A stretch of 64,000 nt of DNA from contig JAHHDT010000005.1 in assembly GCA_019739225.1 (NCBI GenBank), positions 372,001-436,000 of the forward strand. The letters run 5' to 3'. Within the stretch, counting starts at the first letter, position 1. Each line of letters begins with the position of its first letter. Below, piece by piece: positions 36,326-48,248 of this stretch. The position numbers and the translations under genes are program-made. The notes below the pieces were generated by a model. The model searched no databases. It was not told the DNA's origin and saw only the letters and a list, made by a program, of their open reading frames with translations. Origin of the DNA: Aquamicrobium sp. Lineage in GTDB: Bacteria > Pseudomonadota > Alphaproteobacteria > Rhizobiales > Rhizobiaceae.

Positions 36326-36424
36326 TGGGAGGTTGGTGGTGGACGAGCCACTCGCCAACCGGGTCAGGTCCGGAAGGAAGCAGCCCTAACGAGCCACGGC
36401 ACGGGTCATCGTGCCAGCCTCCCA
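36326..36424 (+). ncRNA. ffs: Signal recognition particle 4.5S RNA (small type)
   Basis: A roughly 99-nt RNA recognised by the near-universal SRP helix 8 core GGTCAGGTCCGGAAGGAAGC followed by AGCCC. The outer ends pair (TGGGAGG with CCTCCCA), and the intermediate segments form the long hairpin typical of bacterial 4.5S RNA. Ends are set from pairing and could be a few bases off. With Ffh it targets membrane proteins. It stands just upstream of dnaX, its usual place in alphaproteobacteria. Confidence 0.95.
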
Positions 36425-36549
36425 CCCTTCCCCCATCCATCGGGCCCCATCCACAGGAGACCATGGAACGGAGCGGTTGACGCCGCCGGTTCGCGGGGGC
36501 GAAACTCGATACTTCGGTGCCGCCGCCGCAGGGAGCTGGTTCAAGCGTC

Positions 36550-40631: not shown

Positions 40632-41237
40632 ATGTCGAAACGAATCGCAGGCCCGGAGATCGAACGCCTGATACAGCTTCTGGCCAAGGTGCCGGGGCTG
40701 GGGCCGCGCTCGGCGCGCCGCGCCGCGCTGCACCTTATCAAGAAGAAGGAGCAGCTCCTCGTGCCGCTCGCCGCCTCCATGGGCGAGGCGGTGGAGAAGG
40801 TGCGGGTGTGCTCGACCTGCGGCAATGTCGATACCAGCGATCCCTGCACGATCTGCACCGATCCGCGCCGCGACGGCGCGACGATCATCGTGGTGGAGGA
40901 CGTGGCGGATCTGTGGGCGCTGGAACGCGCCTCGGCGATGAACGTGCGCTACCACGTGCTGGGCGGCACGCTGTCGCCGCTCGACGGGGTGCGGCCGGAG
41001 GATTTGAACATCCGTTCGCTGATCGCGCGCGTTGCCGAAGACGGGGTGCAGGAGGTGATCCTCGCCGTCAACGCGACAGTCGAGGGCCAGACCACCGCCC
41101 ACTACATCACCGACCAGCTTTCGGGCATGGAGGTGAAGGTGACGCGGCTTGCACACGGCGTGCCGGTGGGCGGCGAGCTCGACTATCTCGACGAGGGAAC
41201 GCTTGCCGCTGCGCTGCGGTCGCGGACGGCGTTTTGA
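40632..41237 (+). CDS. recR: Recombination protein RecR
   Basis: A 201-residue DNA-binding protein of the RecFOR pathway. The N-terminal helix-hairpin-helix is [20 protein letters not shown], the zinc finger is [16 protein letters not shown], and a Toprim domain follows ([33 protein letters not shown]), with [16 protein letters not shown]-like [19 protein letters not shown] at the end. Length is the family norm. It is preceded by a family C repeat in place of ybaB, so it must have its own promoter. Confidence 0.96.
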
Positions 41238-41262
41238 GTATCTCGCTAACAAGGAGCACGTG

Positions 41263-42678
41263 ATGAGAGGTTTCACCTTACGTCGCCCCCCTCTGTCCTG
41301 CCGGACATCTCCCCCACAAGGGGGGAGATCGGCAGCGTTGCGCTCATCGCTCCTTCTGCAACGATGGCGATTAGCGAAAGCCGAGACGAAAGCTGATCTC
41401 CCCCCGCGCGGGGGAGATGTCCGGCAGGACAGAGGGGGGCAACGTAGGGCGCCGTTGCTCGCAGGCGTCTTGCTTTTCATGTCGTTCCTTGCAGCACTTC
41501 CGGCATCCGCGCAAAACGTGACGTCGCAGTTCCAGACATGGCTGCAGAACGATCTGTGGCCCGATGCGCGCGCCCGCGGCGTTTCGCAGGAAACCTTCAA
41601 CGCGGCGTTCGGGGGCGTGAGCCCGAACCTGAAGCTGCCGGACCTCGTGATGCCGGGGCAGTCGTCGCAGACGCCGAAGGTGCAGCATCAGGCAGAGTTT
41701 GGCGCGCCGGGCAACTATTTCGCCGAAAACATCGTCTCGGGCGTTACCGGCGGCGGGCGCAGCCGTGCCGGACAGCTTGGCCAGGCGCTCGGGGCCATCG
41801 AGGGACGCTTCGGCGTTCCGTCCGGCATATTGCTGGCGATCTGGGGACGCGAATCCGGCTTCGGCAACGCCAACATACCGCACAATGCTTTTGAGGTGCT
41901 AGGCACCAAGGCGTTCATGGCGACGCGCAAGGACATGTTCCGCGAGGAGGTGCTGGCCGCGCTCGAAATGGTCCAGCGCGGCCATGTTTCCGTGGCGGCG
42001 ATGAAGTCGTCCTGGGCCGGCGCGCTGGGTCAGCCGCAATTCCTGCCGACCTCATACCTGAAATATGCCGTCGATGCCGATGGAAACGGTCGCGCCGACA
42101 TATGGGGCTCGCAGGTCGATACGCTCGCCTCGATCGCCAACTATCTGGCGAGCCACGGCTGGGTGAAGGGCCGCGACTGGGGCTTCGAGGTCACCGTGCC
42201 GGAAAGCGTGTCCTGCGCGCTCGAAGGTCCGGACCGGGGCAAGCGGATTTCCGAATGGGAGGCGATGGGTGTAGCGCGCGTCAGCGGCCGGCCGTTCCCG
42301 GAACACGAGGCGCGGCAGGAGGGTTTCCTGTTGATGCCGGCCGGGCGCTCGGGCCCGGCCTTCATCGTCACACCCAATTTTTATGTGCTGAAGGAATATA
42401 ACGAGAGCGATCTCTACGCGCTGTTCGTCGGCCACGCGGCCGACCGCATCGCCTATGGCGACCGGCGTTTCGCGGGCTCCTGGGGGCGGGTGGCCAAGCT
42501 CTATCGCTCCGACATCGCCGCCATGCAGCGCGGACTGGAGCGTCTCGGCTACGATGTCGGCGGCGCCGACGGCCTGCCCGGCTTCCGCACGCGCCGCTCG
42601 ATCGGCGAGTGGCAGGCGAGGGACGGGCGGGCGCCGACCTGCTTTCCAGACGCCGAACTGGTGCGCGCGCTCGGCTGA
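41263..42678 (+). CDS. Lytic murein transglycosylase (MltB-like) with a repeat element inside its N-terminal coding region
   Basis: A 471-residue protein. The SLT3/MltB catalytic domain has Glu197 in LLAIWGRESGFG, then KSSWAGALGQPQFLPTSYLKYAVDADGNGRADIW. A C-terminal peptidoglycan-binding domain ends the protein (AAMQRGLERLGYDVGGADGLPGFRTRRSIGEWQ). The ATG has a perfect AAGGAG site 7 nt ahead, but codons 8–63 are a 168-bp inverted-repeat element. The hydrophobic core of the signal peptide (LLAGVLLFMSFLAALPASAQ) begins only after it, near residue 65. Without the 56-codon insert the N-terminus would be a normal signal peptide. Translation could instead restart at TTG 41455. Confidence 0.9.
   Translation: MRGFTLRRPPLSCRTSPPQGGRSAALRSSLLLQRWRLAKAETKADLPPRGGDVRQDRGGQRRAPLLAGVLLFMSFLAALPASAQNVTSQFQTWLQNDLWPDARARGVSQETFNAAFGGVSPNLKLPDLVMPGQSSQTPKVQHQAEFGAPGNYFAENIVSGVTGGGRSRAGQLGQALGAIEGRFGVPSGILLAIWGRESGFGNANIPHNAFEVLGTKAFMATRKDMFREEVLAALEMVQRGHVSVAAMKSSWAGALGQPQFLPTSYLKYAVDADGNGRADIWGSQVDTLASIANYLASHGWVKGRDWGFEVTVPESVSCALEGPDRGKRISEWEAMGVARVSGRPFPEHEARQEGFLLMPAGRSGPAFIVTPNFYVLKEYNESDLYALFVGHAADRIAYGDRRFAGSWGRVAKLYRSDIAAMQRGLERLGYDVGGADGLPGFRTRRSIGEWQARDGRAPTCFPDAELVRALG
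41279..41446. repeat. Terminal-inverted-repeat element, family E, inside a coding sequence
   Basis: 168 bp with 37-nt terminal arms (outer ends TACGTCGCCCCCCTCTGTCC and GGACAGAGGGGGGCAACGTA) that differ at one position. The length is exactly 56 codons, and the frame through it has no stop. It lies between the start codon and the signal-peptide core of the lytic transglycosylase. A related intergenic copy is at 48081–48248. Confidence 0.85.
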
Positions 42679-48080: not shown

Positions 48081-48248
48081 CTTCGCGCCCCCCTCTGTCC
48101 TGCCGGACATCTCCCCCACGAGGGGGGAGATCGGTCGGCCGCCCGGCCTTCGCTGACCGCGAGCATTGCAGAACAAGTGGTGCGCGCGAAGCTGCCGATC
48201 TCCACCCTCGTGGGGGAGATGGCTGGCAAGCCAGAGGGGGGCAACGTA
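48081..48248. repeat. Terminal-inverted-repeat element, family E (intergenic copy)
   Basis: Left arm CGCCCCCCTCTGTCCTGCCG then GACATCTCCCCC; right arm GGGGGAGATGGCTGGCAAGC then AGAGGGGGGCAACGTA. It is the same family as the 168-bp element inside the transglycosylase gene, with more diverged arms. It ends 40 bp before the deaminase start. Confidence 0.78.

Follow-up and report, generated by a model that had tools for sequence, protein, structure and literature searches.

How does the gene of an exported cell-wall enzyme come to carry a long palindromic repeat within its signal-peptide sequence, and what does the cell make of it? The question is raised by an mltB-type gene of Aquamicrobium sp., in a window (the whole stretch of DNA that was analysed, 64,000 nt) on a 1.70-Mb contig of a 5.35-Mb genome. 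The repeat sits behind the start codon, ahead of the signal peptide's hydrophobic core. It might be translated, as an addition to the n-region; translation might restart behind it; or the hairpin in the transcript might be what is kept. The answer favoured here, and considered probable, is that a rhizobial palindromic repeat has been captured repeatedly in signal-peptide n-regions, to be translated and then discarded with the signal peptide.

A palindrome inside the mltB reading frame

Translation from the ATG at 41263 would give MRGFT, 56 residues encoded by the element, RAPLLAGVLLFMSFLAALPASA and then the presumed mature enzyme (Table 1). A preliminary description, made from the sequence alone, had set out this layout (AAGGAG, ATG, five codons, element, hydrophobic core) and had named the host gene as a lytic transglycosylase; both points are borne out, the second by the profile matches. 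Likewise, the element is exactly 56 codons long, free of stops in the mltB frame, and would encode a basic peptide, with 13 K/R against 4 D/E among the 56 residues. The inverted repeat is there as well, with longer arms than the 37 nt first given: the repeat finder returns arms of 58 nt, 90% complementary and 58 nt apart. A very long hairpin next to the ribosome-binding site had also been foreseen, and the RNA from 41238 to 41480 is predicted to fold at -155.2 kcal/mol, a stability reached by none of 200 shuffles (z -13.4).

Table 1. Features of the mltB region and of the window
Feature	Position	Strand	Basis
Upstream neighbour, which we take to be recR; anchors orthologous loci	40632..41237	+	translation; neighbour conserved among relatives
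Shine-Dalgarno-like AAGGAG, 5' of the start	41251..41256	+	sequence
mltB-type lytic transglycosylase gene, 471 codons + stop; element in signal-peptide n-region	41263..42678	+	SLT_2 PF13406 1.5e-90, PG_binding_1 1.5e-07, TIGR02283 (MltB_2) 2.3e-104
First five codons (MRGFT), beginning of n-region; corresponds to start of insertion-free relatives	41263..41277	+	comparison with relatives
Inverted repeat, left arm, 58 nt	41276..41333	+	repeat finder
Palindromic repeat element, 168 nt, multi-copy in genome	41279..41446	+	repeat finder and genome search
Inverted repeat, right arm, 58 nt	41392..41449	+	repeat finder
Hydrophobic core and presumed signal peptide end, LLAGVLLFMSFLAALPASA; 41455 is a possible TTG restart	41455..41511	+	sequence; cleavage site inferred
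Another member of the element family	48087..48248	-	genome search

The upstream start and the recurrence of the repeat

Close relatives tell which start came first. A close mltB ortholog is found in seven of eight genus genomes; three carry the element (the genome itself, G000, with G003 and G006) and four lack it (G001, G002, G004 and G007). The element-free genes, such as those of G002 (MRHLAYALCLSLAG) and G001 (MRHLAHALCISLSA), start at the corresponding codon after recR, with TTG as the start in G007. From the recR stop to the mature part there are 265 nt in the window against 85 nt in Mesorhizobium microcysteis (G002), a difference of 180 nt or 60 codons. Since all four element-free relatives start at the corresponding upstream codon, the start at 41263 is, on this comparison of sequences, the ancestral one, and the element would have been added behind it. 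The preliminary description had asked for such an alignment, and had named relatives that start only at the downstream TTG/ATG region as the outcome that would speak against a translated insert; the four insertion-free versions show the opposite. Gene starts of this type can thus be settled by comparing start sites among relatives.

The two other element-bearing orthologs differ from the copy in the window. In G003, which is Mesorhizobium (now Neoaquamicrobium) sediminum of the Phyllobacteriaceae, the element has the opposite orientation. In G006 the gene starts with TTG and holds a shorter version of 126 nt, identical to that of the window in place and frame class. This version belongs to a subtype of about 120-126 nt that G006 carries in several copies, whereas copies in the window's own genome are mostly 161-169 nt; the sequences thus suggest a separate insertion or a local conversion in G006 rather than plain inheritance.

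A wider sample shows how often the place is occupied. A match was present in 252 of 394 genomes of the family, part of which were fetched, and 190 loci were collected (80 named, then 30, 60 and 20); 131 of the first 170 and all of the last 20 were distinct, giving 151. The element or a remnant lies between the recR stop and the mature enzyme in 37 of these 151 and is absent in 114. One batch had been taken out of rank order, skipping 13 loci with mostly shorter open frames and so favouring element-bearing ones; when these 13 and the next seven were put to the same test none of the 20 had the element, and the share fell from 37/131 to 37/151. Without the out-of-rank batch 30 of 114 loci have the element, 28 of the 30 in an open frame; in the named set with the window, which is in rank order, the figures are 24 of 81 and 22 of 24. 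Two pairs of filled and empty loci have common flanks (L075 and L050, MKGR..KALA; L113 and L112, MIVARPS..LRQ).

To count the presences as so many independent insertions was tried and given up: Fitch parsimony on a tree of 420 nt of recR (130 loci) needs 26 changes, gains and losses being indistinguishable, for the 37 presences, against a mean of 32.8 and a minimum of 28 in 300 shuffles. Other long insertions occupy the same place, in frame, in L066, L090, L199 and L241; the insertion of L090 is clearly a palindrome.

Palindromic repeats are hard to assemble, and one of the loci, L070, is frameshifted; the whole arrangement might then be an artefact of assembly or gene model, with the repeat misplaced or the gene dead. 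That the same arrangement is seen in 37 distinct loci, and that the SLT_2 match of the product runs over profile positions 1-292 of 292, makes this explanation extremely improbable.

Frame retention and the competing readings

The frame is kept in nearly all element-bearing loci. In 35 of the 37 (including L130, scored open, which holds N) it runs without a stop from one codon or more ahead of the element through to the enzyme. Of the near-full copies, 32 lack N; 30 of these are open in the gene's frame and 16 in each of the other two forward frames, while the antisense frames are open in 21, 13 and 16 (50/96). For comparison, of the 204 frames offered by 34 copies elsewhere in the window's own genome, 123 are open. 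When the count is confined to the rank-ordered named set with the window, the gene's frame is open in 19 of 21 near-full copies, against 10 and 8 for the other forward frames. With kinship ignored, 30 of 32 has a probability of 4e-19 if the chance of an open frame of the right length is 0.2, and of 2e-5 if the chance of an open frame alone is 0.6. As the loci are related, copies were also grouped by identity: all members are open in 21 of 23 groups at 85%, in five of six at 80% (p 0.0016), in two of three at 75% (p 0.10) and in none of one at 70%.

The frame that is kept is not always the same frame of the repeat. By frame class, 15 of the 37 copies are A, 18 B and one C, with three unclassified (for the two non-open loci, L070 and L147, the class is that of the enzyme's frame). 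The chosen start, where one was found, lies 9 to 48 nt before the element, and the best in-frame start scores at least as high as the best out-of-frame start in 33 of 37 loci.

The two non-open loci deserve separate mention. In L070, from Mesorhizobium (now Neoaquamicrobium) sediminum, the element lies in the opposite orientation and contains a stop; this locus weighs little, as its assembly also breaks the frame in mltB and a paralogue. L147, from a genome titled complete, counts against frame retention: the frame that begins at its upstream ATG passes along the element and is lost at the final G-run. The loss falls within a short run of G, which may be a slippage site or a sequencing error, the two being alike in appearance.

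Selection on the peptide itself was considered and rejected: codon-position counts in five groups gave no general third-position excess within the element. Three close pairs (L080/L085, L236/L238 and L068/L082) lean that way, and were picked after the table had been seen.

On one competing reading, translation begins anew behind the element or within it (in the window, at TTG 41455), the element's G-rich end serving to bind the ribosome; that the frame is open would then be chance or history. There are codons for it in the window: in frame lie TTG 41338 (within the element), TTG 41455, TTG 41470 and ATG 41479. In L147, a GTG after the G-run would give a charged signal peptide. A third observation comes from a second gene. 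In the window's own genome the gene for UrtB (TIGR03409; urea ABC permease) begins ATG-CCC, continues in frame through the element and then enters a signal-peptide-like core; G006 has the same arrangement with its own short version of the element (loci L175:1994-3771 and L246, own genome and G006). An apparent remnant is seen in urtB of G002, and the element is absent from that of G003 and from a more distant match in G004. The own-genome urtB has little Shine-Dalgarno sequence at its ATG and, as an alternative start, a GTG right where the element ends. Yet a restart behind the element needs no upstream frame, and the frame is open in 30 of 32; in 20 of the 37 loci (the non-open L070 included) there is no in-frame start after the element, by the rule that such a start must lie 15 or more codons before the mature part; and the product from 41455 would have no basic residue ahead of its hydrophobic core. 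A restart is accordingly thought quite unlikely. Ribosomal bypassing of the hairpin was set aside on similar grounds, as a bypass would not require an open frame.

Another reading holds that what is kept is the hairpin as such, a translational brake on a cell-wall hydrolase, with in-frame reading as a by-product. The palindrome starts 13 nt downstream of the A in the mltB ATG and is extremely stable, the site is occupied in 37 of the 151 loci, and near-full copies there are about as self-complementary (0.873) as 33 genomic copies (0.878). Recent insertions would be expected to show equal self-complementarity just as well, though, and the 114 empty loci manage without any such brake; we regard this reading as unlikely.

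With the ancestral upstream start, 35 of 37 loci open and urtB holding the element in frame in two genomes, capture of a translated repeat in the n-region is the preferred reading, and the first option of the preliminary description, a basic 56-residue addition to the n-region, is the one favoured. The weighing of the readings rests on frame retention and is unchanged by the drop in share to 37/151.

The repeat family, comparable systems and a probably tolerant n-region

The mltB copy belongs to a large family. At least 85 matches, both strands counted, merge to at least 42 sites in the window's own genome, a lower bound from the 40 of 49 candidates that were scored; four of the 42 are second pieces of interrupted copies. 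Beyond this genome the element matches 183 of 72,556 plasmid records, 73 of them from Rhizobium and 69 from Sinorhizobium. The ends of the G000 copies are of at least two kinds, CTACGTTG and TTCCTTCGCG, combined differently. The element has terminal inverted repeats, a feature of MITEs, and is presumably mobile; comparison of filled with empty mltB loci brings out no clear target-site duplication, and the element ends are palindromic. Dating the insertions by element identity was attempted and abandoned: 20 of 33 genomic copies, with the strand as stored, average 82% alike. Searched against Rfam at gathering scores, the window yields the SRP RNA as sole match (bacterial small SRP RNA, RF00169, at 36328-36425).

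First codon scoring had suggested insertions in the middle of genes, a suggestion that was dropped, several of the ORFs concerned resembling antisense shadow ORFs. Once the scoring had been retrained, the two 300-nt flanks had different best coding frames in 28 of 38 own-genome copies (counting the mltB copy, entered 16 nt off); the other ten have a frame in common, which ahead of the element stays open for just 3 to 23 codons, and five of these ten have a stop within the element. Four G000 copies (L154, L156, L178 and L179), candidates for N-terminal additions, lead into a long open frame downstream and are preceded by 7 to 23 open codons.

Sites where an open element precedes a hydrophobic stretch were scanned for in G000, G006 and G222 (42, 17 and 25 unique sites). 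In G006 and G222 the scan covered the sites within best-match loci, and two loci, mltB of G000 and urtB of G006, were added by hand. An open element with an in-frame upstream start was found at mltB and urtB in G000, at mltB and urtB in G006, and at mltB and L293 in G222; the other hits have a stop in the element (six) or lack an upstream start (L167). Only two of the 42 own-genome sites thus precede an in-frame signal-peptide-like stretch with a nearby upstream start. L293 is a further gene in which the element is open ahead of a signal-peptide-like core, with a candidate start codon only.

Comparable systems exist. Rickettsia palindromic elements (RPE) are repeats of about 150 bp that lie in frame within unrelated genes and add a peptide to the product (PMC10969869); the preliminary description, too, had named Rickettsia for elements inserted in genes. 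As far as the published account extends, the present element is like RPE in being a multi-copy palindrome of nearly that size and in lying in frame within conserved protein genes, here mltB and, in two genomes, urtB. Its place sets it apart by description: a signal-peptide n-region, presumably cut off, and in the window's own genome such places make up the two sites of 42 just given. RPE copies are, it seems, read in one common frame; the element here is read in three forward frames.

Among enterobacterial small mobile repeats, RU-2 contributes to the predicted signal peptide of a Yersinia protein that is putatively exported (Delihas 2007; PMC2759123). The hydrophobic stretch of that signal sequence comes from the repeat; the present element instead lengthens the n-region, and does so for a conserved enzyme and in many species. 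The RIME (rhizobial intergenic mosaic element) and Sm repeats are multi-copy intergenic repeats of rhizobial genomes (PMC2573895, PMC2245857); the host range of the present element and its ends of mixed kinds would fit a RIME, a repeat of mosaic make-up, and its mltB copy departs from the intergenic position in lying within a gene. Long autotransporter signal sequences, in their summary description, share a common domain organisation; the extension here is a repeat read in any of three frames. The preliminary description knew of no account of this family at this position, and among the titles and abstract beginnings listed from the open-licence literature there is likewise no description of the element in signal peptides, though the Yersinia case shows that a repeat in a signal peptide has a precedent. 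Genes with palindromes in frame are likewise on record from Rickettsia; set against these descriptions, capture of a rhizobial repeat in the n-region would be a new variant.

The preferred mechanism may be put as follows. A multi-copy rhizobial palindromic repeat would have entered mltB in frame, behind the start codon and ahead of the part for the hydrophobic core; ribosomes would start at 41263, unwind the long hairpin and translate the element; the n-region would gain about 60 mostly basic residues; the Sec machinery would still recognise the hydrophobic core; and signal peptidase would remove core and extension jointly. The mature enzyme would be unchanged, as core and extension are cleaved off together. 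The n-region would then be a tolerant place, where repeats survive if the frame is kept. Such tolerance would explain why the same place is occupied in many relatives, and in three frames, and why UrtB looks alike; tolerance of a disposable n-region fits the pattern without a function for the peptide, and agrees with the missing general codon-position bias.

A more far-reaching possibility, for which the chances seem rather low, is that palindromic mobile repeats quite generally use signal-peptide n-regions as a landing pad: as this part is translated but thrown away, hyper-stable hairpins would settle there repeatedly and in any frame, and would then brake the translation of exported enzymes, a convergent tuning. 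On this view, changes in the length of the element's G/C runs might even turn the gene off and on. On the preferred reading, that of capture and disposal, mltB amounts to a natural, repeated experiment on the tolerance of a signal-peptide n-region for foreign peptide and RNA structure. The case also suggests that genes may house selfish palindromes where the cell cuts their product away.
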